IMG/VR virus record: IMGVR_UViG_3300044799_000032
Location: 1-39,874 of that record
Reading direction: 5' to 3' (one strand)
Length of the DNA: 39,874 nt
Source: a virus
How positions within the stretch are numbered: the stretch's first letter is position 1; every line of letters begins with the position of its first letter. Both the position numbers and the translations under genes were made by a program. The notes below the pieces were generated by a model, which ran no database searches, was not told the DNA's origin, and saw only the letters and a program-made list of their open reading frames with translations. Shown piece after piece: positions 5,000 through 39,874 of the stretch.

Positions 5000-5545
5000 A
5001 TGATGAAACTCCACAATGAAAACTGCTGGTTAAATGTGTGCAAAATGGCGGATAAGAGTGTGGACTGCATTATTACAGATCCGCCGTACGATGAACCATT
5101 AGATATTGAACAACTAAAGCGAGTGTGCGCCGGAAATATTATAGTTTTCTGCAATCCACTGTATAGGTTCTTTCAGCCGGATGAAATTGCGTACTGGGTT
5201 AAAACACCATCCACTAAAAACTATTCCCGTGGCCTTGGTCATTTCGTTGAGGAAATACTTATTTTGCGCGGGCCAATATTCAATCCTTTGCACTGGTCGC
5301 AAATGACTGGGGTGTACGATGATCGATTAGTATATAAACCAACTCACCCGTACGAGAAACCGCTATCCCTCGTAGAACGATTAGTGCGAATCTATTCATT
5401 TCATCACGACATTGTGATGGATCCATTTATGGGAAGTGGAACAACTGGTGTAGCGTGCAAAAATCTTGGTAGGAATTTTATTGGTTATGAAAGTGACCAA
5501 GATTATTTTAATTTAGCTAAAAATAGAATTGAAATAGGAGACTAA
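5000..5545 (+). CDS. DNA methyltransferase, beta class (N6-adenine or N4-cytosine)
   Basis: 181 residues. It transfers methyl from SAM to an exocyclic amino group of a base in DNA. Motif IV, TDPPY (about residues 26-30), comes before motif I (DPFMGSGTTG, near 140), and the protein ends with a SAM-pocket segment (FIGYESDQDYF). This is the beta-class order of Pfam N6_N4_Mtase. DPPY favours adenine, but N4-cytosine enzymes cannot be excluded. It is short and has no obvious long target-recognition domain. No restriction partner is nearby, so it is a solitary phage methylase, probably protecting phage DNA. The adjacent ATG at 5003 is an equally possible start. Confidence 0.88.
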   Translation: MMKLHNENCWLNVCKMADKSVDCIITDPPYDEPLDIEQLKRVCAGNIIVFCNPLYRFFQPDEIAYWVKTPSTKNYSRGLGHFVEEILILRGPIFNPLHWSQMTGVYDDRLVYKPTHPYEKPLSLVERLVRIYSFHHDIVMDPFMGSGTTGVACKNLGRNFIGYESDQDYFNLAKNRIEIGD

Positions 5546-5546
5546 A

Positions 5547-5747
5547 ATGGAAGAGCAACATGTTTACACACATAACGAGAACGACCACGTGTCCGTCAAC
5601 CTCAGTGTTGAACGCAACACAAAGGGCTACAACTATTCCGCCACCGTTGTGAATGCCAAATCAGTGGAGGATGGTATGGTACTAATTAAGAACGCCATCA
5701 AATTGCTGGAATTTGAGTATGGCAAGAAGGATGAGGCCGCTGGATGA
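5547..5747 (+). CDS. Hypothetical protein
   Basis: 66 residues, with AGGAG just upstream of ATG 5547. A beta-rich first half (VSVNLSVERN...YNYSATVVNA) and a C-terminal helix (VLIKNAIKLLEFEYGKK) resemble small phage proteins found beside ssDNA-binding or methylase genes, but I cannot assign it. It sits between two DNA methyltransferases and overlaps the second by 4 nt. Confidence 0.6.
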   Translation: MEEQHVYTHNENDHVSVNLSVERNTKGYNYSATVVNAKSVEDGMVLIKNAIKLLEFEYGKKDEAAG

Positions 5748-6283
5748 TGTTGCCTTTTCCAAACAAGAAGTACCAAATAATTTATGCTGATCCGCCGTGG
5801 TCTTATGCTGACAAGGCGAGCGCTGGGAAGCGTGGTGCGATTTACAAATATCCAGTTATGAGTCAAACTGCTATTGAAAACCTCCCAGTGAATACTATTT
5901 GTGACGCGGACTGCGCGCTGTTTTTATGGGTAACCATGCCTATGCTGAGCGGGTGCTGGGACCTAATTACCAAATGGGGGTTTACATATAAAACGGTAGC
6001 ATTCACATGGGTAAAAAGAAATAGACGAATGCCTACGTGGTTTTGGGGTATGGGTAATTGGACGCGCGCCAATCCAGAACTATGTTTGCTGGCTATTAAA
6101 GGGAAGATAAGGCGCGCGGACGCTTCCGTCCACTCTATTGTTGATACTGCAATAAGAGAACATTCAAGAAAACCAGATGAAGTTCGAGAAAGGATTGTTA
6201 AACTTATGGGTGATTTACCGCGTATAGAATTATTTGCAAGAATTAAAACTCCAGGGTGGGACGTGTGGGGAGATGAGGTGTAA
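5744..6283 (+). CDS. MT-A70 family DNA N6-adenine methyltransferase
   Basis: 179 residues. Motif IV is ADPPW near residues 15-19, followed by TAIENLPVNTI and CALFLWVTMPML, the typical MT-A70 core. FTYKTVAFTWVK, GNWTRANPELCLLAIKGK and ELFARIKTPGWDVWGDEV complete the family signature. It should methylate adenine N6 in DNA. With the DPPY enzyme the phage has two unrelated amino-methylases, usually a sign of broad anti-restriction. It overlaps the previous gene (ATGATG/TGA) and is followed after one base by the nuclease gene. Confidence 0.92.
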   Translation: MMLPFPNKKYQIIYADPPWSYADKASAGKRGAIYKYPVMSQTAIENLPVNTICDADCALFLWVTMPMLSGCWDLITKWGFTYKTVAFTWVKRNRRMPTWFWGMGNWTRANPELCLLAIKGKIRRADASVHSIVDTAIREHSRKPDEVRERIVKLMGDLPRIELFARIKTPGWDVWGDEV

Positions 6284-9188: not shown

Positions 9189-9359
9189 GTGAAAACTGAA
9201 GAACAGATTAAAGAAAGAATAAAAGAAGTTGATGCTGATGAGCGGTTGCATTACCCGTCAGCGAGTGTATTTGTGAATGCACCTTTAGCTCTAATCCAGA
9301 TTGAACTAGCCATTAGATTGCAAACATTAAAATGGGTTTTAGAGGGAGGGAAGGAATGA
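9189..9359 (+). CDS. Hypothetical helical protein
   Basis: 56 residues from GTG 9189, which has AAGGAGAA at the right distance. The in-frame TTG at 9174 overlaps that ribosome site and is rejected. Mostly helical: a charged first half (EEQIKERIKEVDADERL) and an amphipathic second half (LIQIELAIRLQTLKWVLEGG). It overlaps the DUF932 gene by 4 nt. Function unknown. Confidence 0.6.
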   Translation: MKTEEQIKERIKEVDADERLHYPSASVFVNAPLALIQIELAIRLQTLKWVLEGGKE

Positions 9360-10384
9360 CCGCAAATATTTTTGGTGAACGGTTTTATGGTACGCGCAAG
9401 CCAGCATGGCATGGCCTCGGCAAAGTGTTTGAAAAGGCCATCACCCCTGGTGCGGCAGTAGTTGAGGTCGGCCTTGACTACTCAGTTGAAAAGTTTCCGT
9501 TGTATGCACGCGTTGGCAAAGACAAGAACGTCAAGACCGACAAGGTCGCAATCATGCGCACCCCAACTGCGGATGACCCGCAGTATAAGGTGTTCGGCAT
9601 GGCCGGTAGCAAGTATGAGTTAATTCAAAATGTGCAGCTGGCCTCAATAATGGAGCCGCTCGCTAAGGTGTGGCCCCTGGAAACTGCGGGTGCAGTTGCT
9701 GAGGGTAAGACAGTGTTTATGAGCTTCAACACCGGCGGCGCCGACATTGAGGGCGATCCCATTAACGGGTACTTCCTATTAGTGGATGTGAAGGACGGCG
9801 GTACTGCAACAAAGCTGATTTACACCCCAGTGCGAGTGGTATGCCAAAACACCCTGGTCAGTGGGTTGCGGCAGGCAACGGTCAACATTTCCATTCAGCA
9901 CACTGTAGGATCCGGAAAGCAGTTGGAGGCGCGCATTAATTTGCTGGCCAAGGCTAAAAGTGCTATTGATGAGACCACATTGATATTCCGTCAACTGGCG
10001 ACCACAAAGGTGACGTCGGCACAGGTCAACAAAGCACTTGAGGTAGTTTACCCGCTTCCCGCACCCCGCGACGACCTATCACTACAGGGTTACTCTAAGG
10101 AGGACCTGGGTGACCTACTGTTCAAGAGTGTGGGTGATGCTGAGTACGCACTGGCATACTACACTGAGAAGGCGGAAGAGCGACGCAAGGGCGCGGCTGA
10201 ATTGTACACCAAGCTTAACGATGAGTACCCCAAACTCGGTGCGACGGCTTGGCACCTTTATAATGCCGTTGTTGAAAGTGCAGACTATCGCGATGGAAAA
10301 AATGTTGAGGTGTCCGCATTGTTTGGTGGACGTGCAAAAGAAAAGCAGGCAGCATTTGTTGCCGCCCGCGCGCTTATAAAATAA
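9356..10384 (+). CDS. DUF932 phage/plasmid-like protein (TIGR03299 family)
   Basis: 342 residues from ATG 9356 (GGGAGGGAAGGA just upstream). The opening RKPAWHGLGKVFEKAITPGAAVVEVGLDY and the later TPVRVVCQNTL are characteristic of DUF932 / TIGR03299 proteins, carried by many phages and plasmids, often beside replication or recombination genes. The biochemical role is not established. Full family length, no damage seen. Confidence 0.88.
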   Translation: MTANIFGERFYGTRKPAWHGLGKVFEKAITPGAAVVEVGLDYSVEKFPLYARVGKDKNVKTDKVAIMRTPTADDPQYKVFGMAGSKYELIQNVQLASIMEPLAKVWPLETAGAVAEGKTVFMSFNTGGADIEGDPINGYFLLVDVKDGGTATKLIYTPVRVVCQNTLVSGLRQATVNISIQHTVGSGKQLEARINLLAKAKSAIDETTLIFRQLATTKVTSAQVNKALEVVYPLPAPRDDLSLQGYSKEDLGDLLFKSVGDAEYALAYYTEKAEERRKGAAELYTKLNDEYPKLGATAWHLYNAVVESADYRDGKNVEVSALFGGRAKEKQAAFVAARALIK

Positions 10385-11217: not shown

Positions 11218-12255
11218 GTGAAAATTTTGATGACCGGGTTTACGCCCAACCAGTGCAATATACTGCGTAAGAAAAATCCACTCTACTCTGGGGCCAGCGC
11301 CGTCTACTACGCGCTTGTTGCCGCCGGGCATGAGGTAGTTAATACCTACCCCGCATTCGAACATTTGGACGAGTATGACGCTGTAGTGTGCGGACTGTAC
11401 GCCAGCCAGTCAATAGCGGGCGGGTACAGTGAACCATGCGCGCTTATGTTATCTAAGTTCCGTGAGACGAATACACCCGTCACCTTCTTTCTGGACGACT
11501 GGCATTTGCAGCTAATTGCCAGTGGGTTGAAAACATTCCGCGGTGACGAGCGGCAATTGCGCCGGCACATGAAACTCCTGCATAATGGAGACAAGTATTG
11601 GAACGTACTTGATGCGAATGTTTTGGACATCATGAGCGTGTATTCAGAATTGTACAAAGGAGAGTTTGCTAACGCACCTGCCAAAGTACTCATCCCATGG
11701 TTTATGTGGGTGACGAACTTCGGTCCGGAGGATATGCTCCATTGGCCAAAGGGTGTTCTTCAACGCTATGACCCCACCAACCTCTTTCCTAAAATCCAGG
11801 TTGCTGTGCCGCCACATAAGGAGCGGAATTGGATCCTGTCATCTCGTTATGATATGTCGAAGCAGGTGACGGAAATGAATGCGTCGTGGCCAGTCATTAG
11901 GTACGGGTGTAAGAAAAATGGTGACAACATTGTGCCCAATGAACTTGATTTATTGGACGCGGCCTACGCCCCTAATTGGGGAATTATTTCGCACGCGTAC
12001 CCGCCGCGCGCGCAGGGGCAATGGCGCAACCGCTTCATGTTCGCTGACTGGACTGGATCCATTCTCTACACAACTGGGTTAGAGTGTATTGACGACAACT
12101 TTAAACACACTGTCCAGGAACTGGAACAGTTCGACGATGTTGAACTTAGCATGCTGGCGCATGAGCAGGCCGCCGCGTACCGTGCTAATTGTTGGAGTAA
12201 GGAAAGCGCGGTTGCTGTAATCAACAATGTAGTTAAGAATGGAGGCAACTTATGA
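11218..12255 (+). CDS. Putative GT-B-like DNA glycosyltransferase
   Basis: 345 residues, start GTG with AAGGAG. The opening MKILMTGFTPNQ...YSGASAVYYALVAAGHEVV has the N-terminal Rossmann start of GT-B glycosyltransferases. VTFFLDDWH follows near residue 90. The C-terminus (RNRFMFADWTGSILYTTGLE, then HTVQELEQF and HEQAAAYRANCWSKESAV) looks like the sugar-nucleotide half and closing helix. In this context, next to a C5-methylase-like gene and a dCMP-hydroxymethylase-like gene, the likely acceptor is a hydroxymethylated cytosine in phage DNA (inference). No close named relative is recognised, and the sugar is unknown. An ATGA-style overlap (4 nt) couples it to the methylase. Confidence 0.6.
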   Translation: MKILMTGFTPNQCNILRKKNPLYSGASAVYYALVAAGHEVVNTYPAFEHLDEYDAVVCGLYASQSIAGGYSEPCALMLSKFRETNTPVTFFLDDWHLQLIASGLKTFRGDERQLRRHMKLLHNGDKYWNVLDANVLDIMSVYSELYKGEFANAPAKVLIPWFMWVTNFGPEDMLHWPKGVLQRYDPTNLFPKIQVAVPPHKERNWILSSRYDMSKQVTEMNASWPVIRYGCKKNGDNIVPNELDLLDAAYAPNWGIISHAYPPRAQGQWRNRFMFADWTGSILYTTGLECIDDNFKHTVQELEQFDDVELSMLAHEQAAAYRANCWSKESAVAVINNVVKNGGNL

Positions 12256-13262
12256 GAGTGTTAGGGATGTCGACGTATGGAGGCGGATTTTTGTTAGGAG
12301 TAAAGCGCGCTGGCGGCACCGTCCTTGGCGACATACCGACCTGGGACGAGTGCATGCCATTCGCCAATTTAATTGGAATCAACCATGTGAAACCAGAGGA
12401 CTTCAATCACGCGGATGTCGTAGTTGGAAATCCCCCATGCTCACGATTTTCGGCGATGTCGTATTCCGCCTTCAACGAGAATGATCGCACTAACATAAAC
12501 GCATTTTGTGATTTGACGGCAGTCCTCGACCTGGGCGTGGAAAAGAAGGCCAGAGTTATTCATTGGGAGAATGGCCCGATAGCGTGCACCAAAGGCCGCG
12601 ACATCATTGTTGAGGCGCACCGTCGTGTCCATGCCAAAACCACACTGGTCCTGAAATTCGATTTGCCGTGGACTGGCACACTGCAGCGGCGCCCACGCAC
12701 CCACGTCATACACTTTATGGATCCATGCACAATTAAAGGATTGCCAGGACCCATAAAGGAAACACGCCCCATAAAAGCGTGGGTGGACAGTCATTTTCCT
12801 AAAGGCAAGGTGCAGGTTCCGGTTACATATGAGCGGTATTATCCAATGGAGGACCCTATCGGTGTGGTTGCACACCACGAAAGCATTGGCGGCTTCCGCG
12901 CAATGAAACCCCGCGCTGTCAACGAAACACAGCGGTGGTCTCCATCACTTGTGTCCGGTCGTCAGCACGCCTGGATCCAGGAAAATCGGTGGTGGTCCAT
13001 AGCTGAGTACGCCGCCATTCAGGCCTACCCAGTGGATCTTGATTATGAAACACTGCTTGGCAAGCCGTGGCACCGCGTGACCACCTACATGAGTAAGTCA
13101 GTTTCGCCAGCCGCGTCCAAATGGCTGTTTGAGCATGTGATTACATGTGCAGTGAATTTCGGCAAGGTGATTGGGGAGACACCAGTACAGCAATTTGACA
13201 GTGACGAGAATATTTGGTTTGCCAAATTGGTGGTGCCTGGACAATCGAAGGAGATATTATGA
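12252..13262 (+). CDS. C5-cytosine methyltransferase-like protein (Dcm family)
   Basis: 336 residues. Motif I-like STYGGGFLLGVKRAGG (7-22) and GDIPTW come first. Motif IV is GNPPCSRFSAMS (59-70) with the catalytic Cys63, motif VI ENGP (106-109) and motif VIII QRRPR (145-149). These are the key residues of DNA C5-cytosine methylases, but motif VI is ENG rather than ENV. The C-terminal 180 residues do not show a standard target-recognition region plus motif X that I can place. It either makes 5-methylcytosine or acts on a modified cytosine. It sits between the glycosyltransferase and the kinase with ATGA overlaps on both sides, so all three belong to one pathway. Confidence 0.8.
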   Translation: MRVLGMSTYGGGFLLGVKRAGGTVLGDIPTWDECMPFANLIGINHVKPEDFNHADVVVGNPPCSRFSAMSYSAFNENDRTNINAFCDLTAVLDLGVEKKARVIHWENGPIACTKGRDIIVEAHRRVHAKTTLVLKFDLPWTGTLQRRPRTHVIHFMDPCTIKGLPGPIKETRPIKAWVDSHFPKGKVQVPVTYERYYPMEDPIGVVAHHESIGGFRAMKPRAVNETQRWSPSLVSGRQHAWIQENRWWSIAEYAAIQAYPVDLDYETLLGKPWHRVTTYMSKSVSPAASKWLFEHVITCAVNFGKVIGETPVQQFDSDENIWFAKLVVPGQSKEIL

Positions 13263-14170
13263 TAGTGGTATTTGAAGGACCTGAGAAAGCCGGAAAAAGT
13301 TCTATCATTAGTGAAGTATGCAGCATGTTGAATGACATACATATATCAACTAAGGTGCGCAAGTGGGGACCAGTAAAACCGGATGACCGTGTGTACACTC
13401 CATTTATTAAGAAGGATGCGCTGAGTGACACTGTAATTATTTGGGATCGGTCGTGGTGCAGTGAGGCAGTGTACGCCACCATCCTCAACCGTAAACGGCG
13501 CGCTAACGACGACCCCTGGTTGATGGAGTGGTTGCATGGCCGTGCGGCGACATTAAAGTTTATGGTGCTGCCGTCATACAAGTACGTGAATGGCGACAGG
13601 CGTGATGCAACTGACCTAGTGACGGATCCTATGATGGAGTATATGCACTTCCGCGACTACGCGCTTAGGTACGGGTGGCCAATACTGACAAATGATTTTA
13701 CCCAAGGCAGTTTGCAGATGAACGCGCACCAGGTTATTGGCGAAATCATTAACCAAATGGCACACCCGCAGTGGTACTTCTGCCCGCCACAGTACGTTGG
13801 CCCCAATAACGCGAGGGTGTTGTTTGTTGGAGAGAAGCGCAATGTGTGGGGTCACTACCCAGGTGGTTGGTTGCCATTCACGTCGCCCACAACAATGCAG
13901 TACGCGCGCAATCTTGGTGATGCGAATGCTATGAAATTTGTGTGGACTAACGTTGGAGATATTGAACGAAAGGAGGTGGTAGGATTTGACTTAGTAGTTG
14001 CCTGCGGAAATAAAGCGCAGGACTGGGTTAGGGCGTGCGGACCCAAGACAGTTATCGCACTGCCGCACCCGGCTTGGCTGTACCGGTACAACAATGAGAA
14101 AACTCGCGCGGCCAAGCTGTTAGTAAATCAAACATTAAAATCAATAGGAGAATGTTATGGCAAAGAATAA
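13259..14170 (+). CDS. dNMP kinase fused to a uracil-DNA-glycosylase-like domain
   Basis: 303 residues from ATG 13259 (AAGGAG upstream, ATGA overlap); a longer frame from 13214 lies in the methylase gene. Residues 1-160 are a thymidylate-kinase-like P-loop domain: FEGPEKAGKSS (Walker A, 5-15) and IIWDRSWCSEAVYA (DR motif). After a linker, RVLFVGEKRNVWGHYPGGWLPF, a central FDLVVACGNKAQDW and ALPHPAWLYRY resemble the beta-strand order of the UDG superfamily, with HPAW in the place of the HPS motif. No clear catalytic Asp is seen, so the domain may bind a modified base rather than excise it (inference). In this setting the kinase would phosphorylate modified dCMP. Confidence 0.75.
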   Translation: MIVVFEGPEKAGKSSIISEVCSMLNDIHISTKVRKWGPVKPDDRVYTPFIKKDALSDTVIIWDRSWCSEAVYATILNRKRRANDDPWLMEWLHGRAATLKFMVLPSYKYVNGDRRDATDLVTDPMMEYMHFRDYALRYGWPILTNDFTQGSLQMNAHQVIGEIINQMAHPQWYFCPPQYVGPNNARVLFVGEKRNVWGHYPGGWLPFTSPTTMQYARNLGDANAMKFVWTNVGDIERKEVVGFDLVVACGNKAQDWVRACGPKTVIALPHPAWLYRYNNEKTRAAKLLVNQTLKSIGECYGKE

Positions 14171-14876
14171 GCAATTAGGTCTACCCGGTGTTGAGAAAGC
14201 AGAAAAACCGGAGGCCCCAAAGGACATGTCAATGAGTGCTTTTGTTGGTGACGAAACTGCTGATGAGGAAAATGCCCCAGCGCAAACCTCCTTGTCAGTG
14301 TACAGTGACAAACCAATGTTTGACTCAAGTGACGTCACACCGACAATGATCCGCCTCGCCCAGGGACTCACCCCTGAGGTGCAGTCTGGCGACGCCAAAC
14401 CCGGCCAGTGGATAATTCCCGGCTTTGATCCGTTTGACTCCGTCACTGTTGTCCCTTGGCTGTTCGCAAAGCGCCGCGAATATCGCGATGATGAGGGCAC
14501 CATGCTCTGCATTAGCGACAATTCGATCGAGGGCGTGGGTGACCCCGGTGGACCGTGTGAGGATTGCGTTATGAACAAGTGGGCGGGCGAGCGCGGGAAG
14601 CGCAGACCACCGGCCTGCACGTTCATGTACGCGTACGTTGTGTTCGTGGTTGAGACTGGGTCCCCAGCGCTCCTGTACTTTAAGCGCACCTCCATCGGCA
14701 TTGGCCGGATGATGAATGCGATGGTAGCGCAGGGCGGGATGCGGAAGACTGTTATCCGCCTTACCTCGAAAGGTCAGAAGGGAAAGAAAGGATCCTACTA
14801 CACACCAATGATCGCACCGATCACGGGTGAAAGTGCAGCCGCCGCCATCGAGGCCGCCGCCGCGAAAGTTGGATAA
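14157..14876 (+). CDS. Putative zinc-containing ssDNA-binding (OB-fold-like) protein
   Basis: 239 residues. An acidic, low-complexity N-terminus (1-55) comes before a body with VTPTMIRLAQGLTPEVQSG, GQWIIPGFDPFDSVTVVPWLFAKRREY and a Cys cluster CEDC...PPAC. ALLYFKRTSIGIGRMMNAM and SYYTPMIAPI follow. It ends in an Ala-rich tail. The beta-rich core, the zinc-like cluster and the position next to the polymerase and nucleotide genes match phage single-strand-binding proteins, but the call is by pattern and context only. Its start overlaps the kinase by 14 nt and has AGGAG upstream. Confidence 0.5.
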   Translation: MAKNKQLGLPGVEKAEKPEAPKDMSMSAFVGDETADEENAPAQTSLSVYSDKPMFDSSDVTPTMIRLAQGLTPEVQSGDAKPGQWIIPGFDPFDSVTVVPWLFAKRREYRDDEGTMLCISDNSIEGVGDPGGPCEDCVMNKWAGERGKRRPPACTFMYAYVVFVVETGSPALLYFKRTSIGIGRMMNAMVAQGGMRKTVIRLTSKGQKGKKGSYYTPMIAPITGESAAAAIEAAAAKVG

Positions 14877-14886
14877 TTACTAATTG

Positions 14887-14918
14887 ATTTTGGCGGCATG
14901 TCGCAGTGCCGCCAAAAT
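14887..14918 (+). terminator. 12-bp hairpin between SSB-like and dCMP-modifying genes
   Basis: ATTTTGGCGGCA (14887-14898) and TGCCGCCAAAAT (14907-14918) form a perfect 12-bp stem with an 8-nt loop. Only ATTTG follows, so termination would be partial. It could instead be a processing or stability element ahead of AAGGAG and ATG 14938. Confidence 0.55.
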
Positions 14919-14936
14919 ATTTGAAGGAGACAAATA

Positions 14937-15662
14937 ATGAACTACTACGCACGATACTACCGACAACTTGCAAATGGCCAACCGGCAACCCCACGCGGTT
15001 TGAAAACTACTGGGGTGCAGGATATGGTGTTCACCCCACCGCCGTACACCTTTTGGCGCCGGCCCCACGATAATCCCATGATTGGTTTCATGGAGGGATT
15101 GCAGTTTATTGCTGGAGTTTTTGACCAAAGTGCCATCGCAAGGGTTGCACCACATGCTAAGTTGGAGTTATTCACCCCTCAGAGCTCCTACGGACCACGC
15201 TGTGGCACGCAACTGCAGGAAGTGGTAGATACCATTAGTGAGGATCCAGACACCCGGCGTGCCGTGATTGTACTGGCCAACCAGAGTGAACCGCTGAGCG
15301 AGCGACCATGCACTACAGGTTTACAGTTCCAGGTGAAGGACGGCGGACTACATGTAACGGTCACAATGAGGTCCTCAGATGCGATTTGGGGTATGCCGTA
15401 CGACGTGCTGCAGTTCGGAATGATTAGCCATGTTGTGGCGGTATGCACCGGTTATGCATTTAGGAGTATGGTCATCAACGTCGGCAACGCACACATCTAC
15501 ACCAACACAGCGGTCAACAATCCTGAGTTCACTGAGCACACGTTTGGATTGCCGCCGCTCTCACCAAATACTGTGGCCGCCTGGCAGACGTGGGCGGTGG
15601 GACTTATTGACGGCATCACATGGGAATTTGCGCAGATGGTGTTCAACATAAAGAAGGCATGA
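14937..15662 (+). CDS. Thymidylate-synthase-family dCMP hydroxymethylase/methylase
   Basis: 241 residues. The family transfers a one-carbon unit from methylene-tetrahydrofolate to C5 of a pyrimidine nucleotide. Motifs present: MEGLQFIAG (E53), DTRRAVIVLAN, the catalytic Cys in ERPCTTGLQFQV (C125), MRSSDAIWGMPYD (145-156) and GNAHIY (H186, Y188). In thymidylate synthase the residue after PF/PY is Asn177 (E. coli), which reads dUMP. Here it is Asp156, as in T4-type dCMP hydroxymethylase, where Asp selects cytosine. So the substrate is predicted to be dCMP and the product 5-hydroxymethyl- or 5-methyl-dCMP. AAGGAG precedes the ATG. Confidence 0.85.
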   Translation: MNYYARYYRQLANGQPATPRGLKTTGVQDMVFTPPPYTFWRRPHDNPMIGFMEGLQFIAGVFDQSAIARVAPHAKLELFTPQSSYGPRCGTQLQEVVDTISEDPDTRRAVIVLANQSEPLSERPCTTGLQFQVKDGGLHVTVTMRSSDAIWGMPYDVLQFGMISHVVAVCTGYAFRSMVINVGNAHIYTNTAVNNPEFTEHTFGLPPLSPNTVAAWQTWAVGLIDGITWEFAQMVFNIKKA

Positions 15663-15663
15663 A

Positions 15664-17373
15664 GTGAATTACATAGACAACATCATCACGGATCCTACTG
15701 AGGCGGTAAAGCACCTCAATAAGTACAAGGTTATAGCATTTGATTTGGAGACAACCGGTCTTTCACCATGGAAAGACAGCATTGCACTTATTCAAATGCT
15801 GGGCGAGGGTTCCGAGCACCCATGCCTTATTAAAGTGCGACAAGGTTGTGTACCTGATGTGATACACGATTTGTTTGACAACACCCACATTTTTGTTGGG
15901 CATAATATTACGGCTTTCGACTTACTCTTTTTCGGGACACATAATCTGCCATGGGAAAAAGCAGACTTTTTTGACACTTTAACGGGTGAATGTATCATTT
16001 CAACAACAGGTAGGCGGGATGTCTCCAAAAGTTTACGCGAGTCAGTTAGGCGCCGACTTGACATTGCAATTAACAAAGATATCGAGCATTCATCCTGGAA
16101 TAATGAAACGCTTACTCCAGAGCAGATTAGTTACGCGGTTGAGGACGTCACGCACCTGGTAGACCTGATGCACACCCAACAAGAGAATGCCAAAAACTCT
16201 GGCCAACTACAGGCACTTGAATTTGAAATGCGCTCTATAAAAGCATTCGTACGGATGACGCTAAACGGCCTGCCTCTAAAACCGAAGGTGTTGAACGCAT
16301 GGCTGGGCGAGCAGTTGAAAATAAGAAGTAAGAGCGAGATTGAACTAAAACGCCTGTTGGGCGACATCAACTTCAATTCACCAAAACAAAAGTTGGCGGC
16401 GTTGGCGGCGATTGGGGTGCAGTTGCCAAACACAAAAGCGGAGACATTCCAGGACATCTCAATGTATGGATCCGGTAAGGTTAAGGAGATTGCTGACCTG
16501 TTTTTGAGTTACAGTGGTCCTGCCCAACGACTGAAGATGTACTCTAAGGAATGGCAGCAGCAGCATATTATCAACGAGTGGATCCACCCGCGCTTCTGGT
16601 CCGCTGGAACTGACACACTTCGCATGTCGTCATCAGATCCCAACATTCAACAGGTGCCGGGCGACGGACGAAAAGTTTTTGGTGGCGTTGATGGACACCA
16701 AATAGTATGGGGTGACTATTCACAAATAGAAGTCAGAATTGCGGCGCATATTGCGCAGGATGTGGTGCTGAATAAGTTGCTTAGGGAGGACGACGTGCAC
16801 ACTGCTGTGGCGGCGCAAGTATTCGGGGTGGATACTAAACAGGTCACTAAGGAGCAGCGGCAAGCATCGAAAGCAATGACATTCCTACTGCTGTTCGGCG
16901 GCGGATCCACCAAATTGCACGAGTACATGCGCGGGCAGGGGTCCAGCGCGACGGAGGGGGACGTGAACAATATGTTCAACAATTTCTTTACGTCATTTAG
17001 CGGGTTGGCAACAATGCGCAGGCGCGCCTACGCACTATCATCCAGTAGGCGAGTGGTGTCGTTACGGCTGCCGAATGGAGCAAAGCGGGTGTTGGTCGGG
17101 ATGAAGAACGCACCAACCGTTATATTAAACACAATGGTTCAAGGCACTTGCGCTATTGGTCTTAAGCGCGCGCTTCAATTGTGTTATGAACGTGGACTTA
17201 TGAAGTACATTGGGGCCGCGGTGCATGACGAACTGGTTGCGACTGTGCCAAATGACGAGGTAGTTGAATTTAGTGCTGCGCTATCAAAAGCAATGATTGA
17301 CGGCATGAATGACATCACACCAAACATGCTGGTGAAAGTAGAAGTTAAGCACGCAGATTTTTGGAGTAAATAA
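15664..17373 (+). CDS. polA: Family A DNA polymerase with 3'-5' exonuclease
   Basis: 569 residues, GTG start. The N-terminal DEDD exonuclease shows AFDLETTGL (D27, E29), VGHNITAFDL and a C-terminal YAVEDVTHLVDL. The palm/fingers contain TLRMSSSDPNIQQVPG, motif A WGDYSQIEVRI (catalytic Asp near 351), motif B RQASKAMTFLLLFGGG (about 399) and motif C AVHDELV (Asp near 522). There is no 5'-3' exonuclease domain. The length fits compact phage replicases of the T7 type. It sits between the dCMP-modifying enzyme and the MazG-like gene, so it is the enzyme expected to insert the modified nucleotide. Confidence 0.96.
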   Translation: MNYIDNIITDPTEAVKHLNKYKVIAFDLETTGLSPWKDSIALIQMLGEGSEHPCLIKVRQGCVPDVIHDLFDNTHIFVGHNITAFDLLFFGTHNLPWEKADFFDTLTGECIISTTGRRDVSKSLRESVRRRLDIAINKDIEHSSWNNETLTPEQISYAVEDVTHLVDLMHTQQENAKNSGQLQALEFEMRSIKAFVRMTLNGLPLKPKVLNAWLGEQLKIRSKSEIELKRLLGDINFNSPKQKLAALAAIGVQLPNTKAETFQDISMYGSGKVKEIADLFLSYSGPAQRLKMYSKEWQQQHIINEWIHPRFWSAGTDTLRMSSSDPNIQQVPGDGRKVFGGVDGHQIVWGDYSQIEVRIAAHIAQDVVLNKLLREDDVHTAVAAQVFGVDTKQVTKEQRQASKAMTFLLLFGGGSTKLHEYMRGQGSSATEGDVNNMFNNFFTSFSGLATMRRRAYALSSSRRVVSLRLPNGAKRVLVGMKNAPTVILNTMVQGTCAIGLKRALQLCYERGLMKYIGAAVHDELVATVPNDEVVEFSAALSKAMIDGMNDITPNMLVKVEVKHADFWSK

Positions 17374-17383
17374 AAGGAGAAAA

Positions 17384-17803
17384 ATGAGCAAAACACAGTT
17401 TGAAATGGTAGGCGACTTTCATAGAAAGTTCGGGCTACCGGTGGCGATGGAGGGTGATAGTCAACCGCACATTATTGACGACAAGACGGCTGAGTTCCGG
17501 TTCAAATTCCTTATTGAGGAACTCCAGGAACTAGTGCTTGCGCACAGTACTAAGGATCTTGTTGGTGTCGCTGATGCACTCGCTGATCTCGTGTATGTGG
17601 CACTCGGAACTAGTCATTTTTACGGTTTACCATTTAATGCACTGTTCGATGCAGTGCATGAGTCCAACATGAAGAAGGCGCGCGCCGCAAGTGCAGACCA
17701 GTCGAAGCGCGGATCCACCTTCGATGTGGTGAAGCCTGAGGGGTGGGTGAAACCCGACCTGGGTATTATACTTGAGGCAGCAATAGAGAGGAACCATGAG
17801 TAA
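17384..17803 (+). CDS. MazG-like nucleoside triphosphate pyrophosphohydrolase
   Basis: 139 residues of the all-alpha NTP-PPase kind. FLIEELQEL (EExxE-type metal site) and later VADALADLVYVALGT (ExxD-like, here DxxxD) make the four-helix active site; FYGLPFNALFDAVHESNMKKA closes the fold. In T-even phages a dCTPase removes normal dCTP so that the modified nucleotide is used. This gene, directly after the polymerase, is a good candidate for the same job (inference). AAAAGGAG precedes the ATG and the end overlaps the next gene. Confidence 0.8.
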   Translation: MSKTQFEMVGDFHRKFGLPVAMEGDSQPHIIDDKTAEFRFKFLIEELQELVLAHSTKDLVGVADALADLVYVALGTSHFYGLPFNALFDAVHESNMKKARAASADQSKRGSTFDVVKPEGWVKPDLGIILEAAIERNHE

Positions 17804-38892: not shown

Positions 38893-39874
38893 TATTCACC
38901 TCTCCGTCGCCATATAAGATTAGTTGCGTACCGCGTACTATCTATTGAGTGGTTATTTTTATCAGGGTATTCTGCAATTAAGTCACCATCTATTGTGCGT
39001 TCAAATTCGTACGATATAAATTCGTCAGCAGCGTAAGGTGCGCGTGCTGGATCAATCACAATCTCTTTTAATGAGGCCAGCCACTTCATGCTGTACTTGA
39101 CGGACTCAGGTCCCTTCTCTGCGCCCCTCGCCGCGGCACCATACTCCCTAAAGTCGGCAATAGATTTGGGTTCCGCGCTATCGCATATTAACGTATGCTC
39201 GGGTGTGAGACCATACGCCACAAGGTCCTCGTACAACTGGCGGTTGGATGTTTTGTTGCGGCGCAACTCGCCGAAAATATACAGTGTCAGACGGGCGGCG
39301 TCGTAGTGGACGCGGGTGTAGTCGGCAGGATCCGGATAGAAGCCCCAGTCGAGGCCATGCATCACGCGGTCAAATCCGCCAACCATACCATTCATCCCAT
39401 CGCTCTTACCATAAATTTCCCAGTCCTCAATAGCACGCAATATAACATTTTCAAATACCATACCGCCGGTGCCGTTCACAACACCCAGGTACTCATGTTC
39501 ATACGCAGCGGGGTTAACTTCCTTTAAGTGTTGAGCCTCCTCCAAGAACGTCTTACCCAACCACTCGGGCGGCACGCTTAGGTAATCACTTCTATGTTGA
39601 TACTGTGTGTCCTTTGGAATCTTTACGTATTTATTGGCCCAGTTCTGTGAGGTGCGCGGCGGATTGAAGTTCTTGAATATGAACGCCTCGTCGCCGCCAC
39701 GAATGGCACTTTGTTCTATGGACCGAATTTGTTCCGGACCATGGAAGGTGTCAAGTTCCTCAAACCACAGAATGCCGATGTAGCCGAACTGAGGCTTGAT
39801 GCTTTTAATTTTCATTGGGTCGTCGGCGCCGCGGAAATAAATTTTCTGCTGCGTCGGCAGGTACTCGATCTCGA
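38892..39874 (-). CDS. terL: Terminase large subunit (3' part; continuation from positions 749-1)
   Basis: C-terminal part of the packaging motor, continuous with the 1-749 piece once the genome is circularised. Residues ILWFEELDTF form Walker B and the catalytic Glu. The RNase H-fold nuclease follows, with acidic motifs GLDWGF, CDSAEPKS and HSIDSTRYA, each carrying the Asp expected of a metal-binding headful nuclease. The ATG at 39815 is internal, not a start. The stop TAA overlaps the ATG of the next 32-residue gene (TAATG). Length and motif order fit the PBSX/Terminase_3-type family. Confidence 0.93.
   Translation of the reverse strand, partial: EIEYLPTQQKIYFRGADDPMKIKSIKPQFGYIGILWFEELDTFHGPEQIRSIEQSAIRGGDEAFIFKNFNPPRTSQNWANKYVKIPKDTQYQHRSDYLSVPPEWLGKTFLEEAQHLKEVNPAAYEHEYLGVVNGTGGMVFENVILRAIEDWEIYGKSDGMNGMVGGFDRVMHGLDWGFYPDPADYTRVHYDAARLTLYIFGELRRNKTSNRQLYEDLVAYGLTPEHTLICDSAEPKSIADFREYGAAARGAEKGPESVKYSMKWLASLKEIVIDPARAPYAADEFISYEFERTIDGDLIAEYPDKNNHSIDSTRYATNLIWRRRGE
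39748..39874. repeat. Right copy of 127-bp terminal overlap
   Basis: Identical to 1-127. Removing one copy leaves a circle of about 39,747 bp with an intact terL. Confidence 0.9.

Follow-up and report, generated by a model that had tools for sequence, protein, structure and literature searches.

A compact phage operon predicted to hydroxymethylate and glycosylate cytosine, with a glycosyltransferase resembling T4 beta-glucosyltransferase in predicted fold

Gene content of the locus

The IMG/VR virus record IMGVR_UViG_3300044799_000032 (39,874 bases; its whole length was analysed and is called the window) was studied for a seven-gene operon that may direct hypermodification of cytosine. An identical 127-base direct repeat is present at both ends (1–127 and 39748–39874). 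The related record G001 likewise has identical ends, and both assemblies are therefore probably circular and complete. The virus infects bacteria, and the operon spans about 6.6 kb of a roughly 40-kb genome. Seven open reading frames (ORFs) were present between 11218 and 17803, all on the forward strand and with zero internal stops (Table 1). Their spacing ranges from −14 to +60 bp; most of them overlap, with ATGA-type overlaps, and ribosome-binding sites are present. Near-identical DNA was absent from the phage collection when the first 25 kb of the window was used as the query. Residues, predicted fold and linkage give good support to a T-even-like cytosine-replacement pathway, in which hydroxymethylation is followed by glycosylation, and we consider it the probable function of the locus.

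Table 1. Predicted genes of the operon in the window and a sugar-nucleotide gene found in its relatives
Feature	Coordinates	Strand	Basis and remarks
GT-B glycosyltransferase, T4-BGT-like predicted fold, candidate hydroxymethylcytosine DNA glycosyltransferase	11218..12255 (GTG start)	+	AF2 model; phrog_14998 family
Divergent C5-cytosine methyltransferase homologue	12252..13262	+	Catalytic motifs; group profile; ATGA overlap with the glycosyltransferase gene
P-loop nucleotide kinase fused to a UDG-superfamily domain	13259..14170	+	Pfam UDG; TIGR00041
Gene 4, conserved protein with Cys cluster	14157..14876	+	Identity to relatives; weak Pam3_Gp34 match
Thymidylate synthase family enzyme, predicted dCMP hydroxymethylase	14937..15662	+	Pfam Thymidylat_synt; diagnostic residues
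Family A DNA polymerase (PolA) with 3'-5' exonuclease domain	15664..17373	+	Pfam; PHROG; replicative
MazG/PRA-PH-type nucleotide pyrophosphohydrolase, candidate dCTPase analogous to T4 gp56	17384..17803	+	Pfam PRA-PH; phrog_671
UDP-galactopyranose mutase (relatives)	L002:13031-14128; L077:11043-12122; L078:3480-4559; L079:4177-5256; L080:11043-12122; L081:6221-7300; L086:5862-6935

An earlier reading of this DNA, made without database searches (the sequence-only reading), had named a PolA and a MazG-like pyrophosphatase at the end of the operon. Both could be confirmed, PolA by Pfam and PHROG matches (45–51% identity in relatives) and the MazG-type protein by matches to Pfam PRA-PH (E 9.6e-16) and phrog_671 (E 7.7e-29). 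Gene 4, which had been called single-stranded-DNA-binding-like, did not keep that name, as it gave a sub-threshold match to Pam3_Gp34 and none in PDB; it shares 43–48% identity with its counterparts in the relatives L020 and L014.

Base specificity of the thymidylate synthase family enzyme

The fifth gene product matched Pfam Thymidylat_synt (E 4.1e-20). In thymidylate synthase (TS) and T4 gp42, it is established that Asp or Asn at one position sets the choice between cytosine and uracil. Alignments that took in T4 gp42, SPO1-type, M6, Montesquieu and Gordonia phage enzymes together with E. coli ThyA placed D156 of the window enzyme at this position, which is Asn in ThyA and in dUMP hydroxymethylases and Asp in T4 gp42. 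Across all fetched TS ORFs, Asp was found in 67 of 72 aligned rows, some of them near-duplicates, and the five Asn rows comprised three dUMP-hydroxymethylase-type phages and two ThyA-like proteins. The nucleophile C125 and the phosphate-binding R145 and S146 were invariant. The dCMP-type Asp proposed from the sequence thus held in comparison with T4 gp42, SPO1-type, M6 and ThyA enzymes.

A pathway of the dUMP hydroxymethylase type, modifying thymine or uracil in place of cytosine, could account for the dCMP deaminase that lies beside TS in phage DSL-LC01, the Gordonia phages and phage Kurnik, and for the annotation of the kinases as thymidylate kinases. The Asp at the base-selecting position is opposed to it, and the hydroxymethyluracil route was rejected on this residue; moreover, no deaminase match adjoins the module in the window, and a second TS-annotated protein of Gordonia phage GMA2, probably a ThyX, could make dTMP. 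We regard this alternative as hardly credible.

The Asp of the RSxD motif touches folate in TS, and the C-terminal APVAI tail of ThyA is required for the reductive step. The tail is missing from the window enzyme, and the folate-site Asp is kept (D148; RSSD, compared with RSND in T4 gp42, RSCD in ThyA and RSQN in RB69 ORF048). The RB69 enzyme lacks both the Asp matching folate-binding D169 of E. coli TS and the next Gly, whereas the window enzyme retains RSSD...G as T4 gp42 and ThyA do. RB69-type TS homologues were reported to make 5-hydroxy-dCMP, and like the window enzyme they carry the cytosine Asp and are paired with glycosyltransferases (PMC13390438). The window enzyme might then also make 5-hydroxy-dCMP, as in RB69/Mosigvirus, with the sugar placed directly on the C5 oxygen, but given the loss of the folate Asp and Gly in RB69 and their retention here we find this very unlikely. 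Because the folate-contacting Asp is kept, one-carbon transfer is the better prediction, which makes dCMP hydroxymethylase the most likely activity of the enzyme.

The active-site Trp (E. coli W80) was dropped as a discriminator of methylases and hydroxymethylases, since T4 gp42 also aligns a Trp there. The TS homologue of Rhizobium phage RHph_I46 (L012:2258-3034) carries MRSQN plus the Asp, resembling the RB69 5-hydroxy-dCMP synthase, and this phage is possibly a 5-hydroxycytosine phage. The second TS-annotated protein of GMA2 (L004:32378-33076) fails to align with the ThyA family.

Predicted fold of the glycosyltransferase

The product of the first gene, the glycosyltransferase (GT), gave zero matches in Pfam, PHROG or the sequences of PDB (phmmer and hmmsearch). 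Homologues at 22–26% identity could be found by tblastn in 16 phage records (13 Gordonia records, DSL-LC01 and two records of one Manatee Spring phage), annotated as glycosyltransferase or hypothetical protein. Five of six aligned family members matched phrog_14998, a family without assigned function. An AlphaFold2 (AF2) model from two sequences reached a pLDDT of 41; after 15 further IMG/VR loci were fetched, a 17-sequence alignment was used, which gave a pLDDT of 84.2 and a pTM of 0.85. Among 350,542 PDB chains, the top match of this model was T4 beta-glucosyltransferase (BGT; Foldseek E 1.7e-7), with a VIA Z of 18.2 over 298 aligned residues at 3.7 Å root-mean-square deviation, followed by PimA, SenB, T4 alpha-glucosyltransferase (AGT) and other GT-B enzymes. 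The residue D94 does not vary among the six aligned sequences and sits after strand 88–92; mapped by topology only, it may be the counterpart of the catalytic D100 of BGT, which follows the corresponding strand. The glycosyltransferase-like character noted earlier for this gene is borne out by the predicted GT-B fold and its best PDB match, despite the lack of a sequence match to a named family.

GT-B folds are common, and a UDP-galactopyranose mutase adjoins the GT in several relatives and has been taken, in DSL-LC01, for a cell-wall gene (PMC10611076). The GT could therefore act on the host envelope or a virion component, its linkage to TS being incidental and the genome carrying plain hydroxymethylcytosine, perhaps with some 5-methylcytosine. 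Set against this are the linkage to a dCMP-type TS and a C5-methyltransferase in 16 of 16 records and in independent lineages, the position of the GT gene among replication genes, and a best structural match that is itself a DNA glycosyltransferase; we judge this explanation quite unlikely. GT homologues were found solely in phages also carrying a dCMP-type TS, and none was found in the scanned bacterial genomes.

In DSL-LC01 and in six IMG/VR loci, the mutase gene is flanked by two GT paralogues (Table 1). Owing to this position, the donor sugar in the mutase-bearing loci may be galactofuranose.

C5-methyltransferase and kinase-UDG fusion

The window C5-methyltransferase gave a weak Pfam match, and the profile of its group matched the solved C5-methyltransferases HhaI, HaeIII and DNMT1 (E 1.4e-15). 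The catalytic residues are intact, namely C63 (PPC), E106 (ENV-type) and R147-x-R149 (QxRxR), and motif X is present. With these motifs and the profile match, the C5-methylase-like assignment of the second gene stands. The S-adenosylmethionine (AdoMet) motif I is atypical (TYGGG for FxGxGG, with GG kept and F and the first G changed), and at motif II the window has P where homologues have E, D or N; on account of these two motifs, AdoMet use is likely, not certain. A loss of the motif II acid across the whole group was considered and dropped, since in the alignment of the group profile to DNMT1 both L018 and L003 carry E at this position and many homologues carry D.

There is an even chance that this protein is an orphan methylase of the ordinary sort, which helps to avoid restriction and is functionally independent of the hydroxymethyl and glycosyl route; that would be compatible with the cytosine-replacement pathway for the other genes. 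Its three intact catalytic motifs, the match to HhaI, HaeIII and DNMT1, and the additional MT-A70 and N6/N4 methylases of the window are consistent with such a role. It accompanies the GT, however, far more faithfully than expected of an orphan methylase, and the GT-linked C5-methyltransferases have in common a (T/S)xG motif beyond motif VI, in most cases with R as the next residue; the two canonical controls, Dcm and phiD12, lack it. Homologues were not found in the scanned bacterial genomes. A further proposal, which we think rather unlikely, is that hydroxymethylcytosine receives a sugar new to DNA (galactofuranose where UDP-galactopyranose mutase adjoins the GT) and that the C5-methyltransferase fold obligately trims or exchanges the 5-substituent and does not methylate plain cytosine.

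The third gene product has a P-loop (GPEKAGKS) with weak thymidylate-kinase matches (TIGR00041 E 4e-4), fused to a domain of the uracil-DNA glycosylase (UDG) superfamily that scores 26.7 bits against the Pfam UDG cut-off of 24.3, which upholds the earlier description of a kinase with a UDG-like domain. The scores above the cut-off were 26.7–28.9 bits, and six of 10 homologous domains match Pfam UDG at E values up to 1. The window domain reads VGE...TNVG...PHPAW; the proline of motif I (G-x-x-P) is lost and PHPAW is kept. The fusion recurs in L020, DSL-LC01, L049, L050, L058, L059, L077, L080 and L087, where motifs of the VG(E/D) type and PHP are conserved; the domain is degenerate in G001, where the HP motif is lost, and truncated or absent in L084 and in the Gordonia kinases. 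Proteins of this superfamily that recognise 5-hydroxymethylcytosine (5hmC) or glucosyl-5hmC are known (Brig3 and Brig1; PMC13160076). Base recognition or clean-up, for example of hydroxymethyluracil from deaminated hydroxymethyl-dCMP, is a reasonable guess for the window domain.

Conservation and linkage in related phages

A dCMP-type TS and a C5-methyltransferase are present in every one of the 16 phage records that have a member of the GT family. The same 13 Gordonia records and DSL-LC01 top the match lists of GT, TS and C5-methyltransferase, and the Manatee phage holds all three. Of the 15 GT loci fetched from IMG/VR, ten extend 2.9 kb or more beyond the downstream end of the GT, and each of these ten holds the C5-methyltransferase; the remaining five end too early to enter this count. 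MazG or dCMP deaminase, and a kinase, occur near the GT-linked module in relatives, and MazG-type genes adjoin the GT and the C5-methyltransferase there. The full set in DSL-LC01 consists of kinase-UDG, TS, dCMP deaminase, PolA, GT, UDP-galactopyranose mutase, a second GT, MazG and C5-methyltransferase, and Micrococcus phage Kurnik carries a C5-methyltransferase, an Asp-type TS, MazG and two GTs of other kinds.

In G001 (40,325 bp), the GT, C5-methyltransferase, kinase, gene 4, TS and PolA occur in the same order at 34–51% identity. As the order is kept in relatives and the same combination is found in unrelated phages, the seven-gene set is far beyond chance. The claim of the sequence-only reading that the seven genes form one route held as far as a recurrent, order-conserved set is concerned. 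They are not indivisible, and PolA belongs to the module by synteny only. The record L020/G002 (39,086 bp) retains the DUF932 gene, kinase-UDG, gene 4, TS and PolA, and in place of the GT and the C5-methyltransferase has an HNH-like gene (recognised by eye) and a class I AdoMet-dependent methyltransferase (L020:7562-8338). This exchange indicates that a base-making core and a decorating cassette are separable, and the cassette looks exchangeable.

Homologues of the L020 methyltransferase lie upstream of TS and close to MazG in L041, L049, L055, L056, L058, L059 and L062; this enzyme is possibly an alternative decoration of hydroxymethylcytosine.

Proposed pathway and comparison with known systems

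In the pathway that we propose, the MazG-type enzyme would deplete dCTP and supply dCMP, onto which the TS-family enzyme would transfer a hydroxymethyl group from methylene-folate. The P-loop kinase would convert hydroxymethyl-dCMP to the diphosphate, host enzymes would make the triphosphate, and the phage PolA would incorporate hydroxymethylcytosine into DNA. Glycosylation by the GT-B enzyme after replication would then protect the phage genome against restriction and CRISPR nucleases. For the C5-methyltransferase, the most likely substrate is cytosine or modified cytosine of the same DNA, its simplest role being the protection of residual unmodified sites. The most likely task of the UDG-like domain is to recognise the modified base or to remove wrong bases, for example (hydroxymethyl)uracil.

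Several points weigh against this pathway. Sequence homology between the GT and BGT is undetectable (about 10% identity; hhalign probability 2.5%), and owing to this value the GT is not placed in the sequence family of BGT and is only proposed to work alike. A GT-B fold by itself does not establish a DNA acceptor. The GT and the C5-methyltransferase were found nowhere in L020/G002. The C5-methyltransferase would have little substrate if cytosine were fully replaced; its role is the weakest point of the proposal, though no other gene accompanies the GT as faithfully.

The kind of system is already known from T4, and the window holds a compact, differently assembled version. As in T4 (gp42, gp1, gp56 and alpha-gt/beta-gt), a dCMP-type TS, a nucleotide kinase, a MazG-superfamily pyrophosphatase and a BGT-like predicted GT-B fold are found together, in agreement with the T-even-like cytosine route suggested from sequence alone. 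Unlike T4, the GT is without sequence homology to BGT, the kinase is fused to a UDG-like domain, a C5-methyltransferase is a companion, and PolA takes the place of a family B polymerase in an operon of about 6.6 kb; the two added proteins, already singled out by the earlier reading, proved to be recurrent companions. TET-dependent hypermodification of 5-methylcytosine combines a C5-methyltransferase, TET/JBP and a GT. The window likewise has a C5-methyltransferase and a GT together but carries a TS-family enzyme instead of TET/JBP, for which no match was found among the window genes scanned with Pfam, a scan that left out some small ORFs. The 5-hydroxycytosine arabinosylation of RB69/Mosigvirus also joins a TS-superfamily dCMP enzyme to phage GTs (PMC13390438), but its TS has RSQN where the window has RSSD, and arabinose synthesis genes were not found in the window. 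The Brig1 and Brig3 proteins similarly tie a UDG-superfamily domain to 5hmC biology (PMC13160076); they are host defence enzymes, whereas the window domain sits on a phage nucleotide kinase, with motif I altered.

The same gene set (Asp-type TS, kinase, PolA, GT, C5-methyltransferase and MazG or dUTPase-type) is found in DSL-LC01, in Gordonia phages GMA2, Forza, Mareelih, GodonK and Phendrix, and in Kurnik. The annotations there are generic and the genes are spread over 10–25 kb, most of the records having two GT paralogues; DSL-LC01 has the additional mutase, and the Kurnik GTs are the ones of other kinds. The unnamed family phrog_14998 thereby gains a predicted function as DNA glycosyltransferases and is tied to a C5-methyltransferase, a kinase-UDG fusion and a predicted dCMP hydroxymethylase. 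The cultured Gordonia phages GMA2, Forza and GodonK are predicted to carry glycosylated cytosine, which is directly testable in these cultures. Sugars new to DNA bear on how phages withstand restriction and CRISPR and on artefacts in sequencing, and they are a source of enzymes for hydroxymethylcytosine labelling.

Neighbouring genes and further observations

Upstream of the module, genes of an N6/N4 DNA methylase type and an MT-A70-type methyltransferase were found at 5000–6283 of the window. A DUF932 protein is encoded at 9332–10384, also upstream, and its position is kept in L018 and L020; weaker DUF932 homologues lie upstream of MazG-kinase-TS in L058 and L059. A locus of a large-genome phage (L069:4283-10579) holds C5-methyltransferase-like, kinase-like, GDP-mannose dehydratase-like and Asp-type TS genes together.

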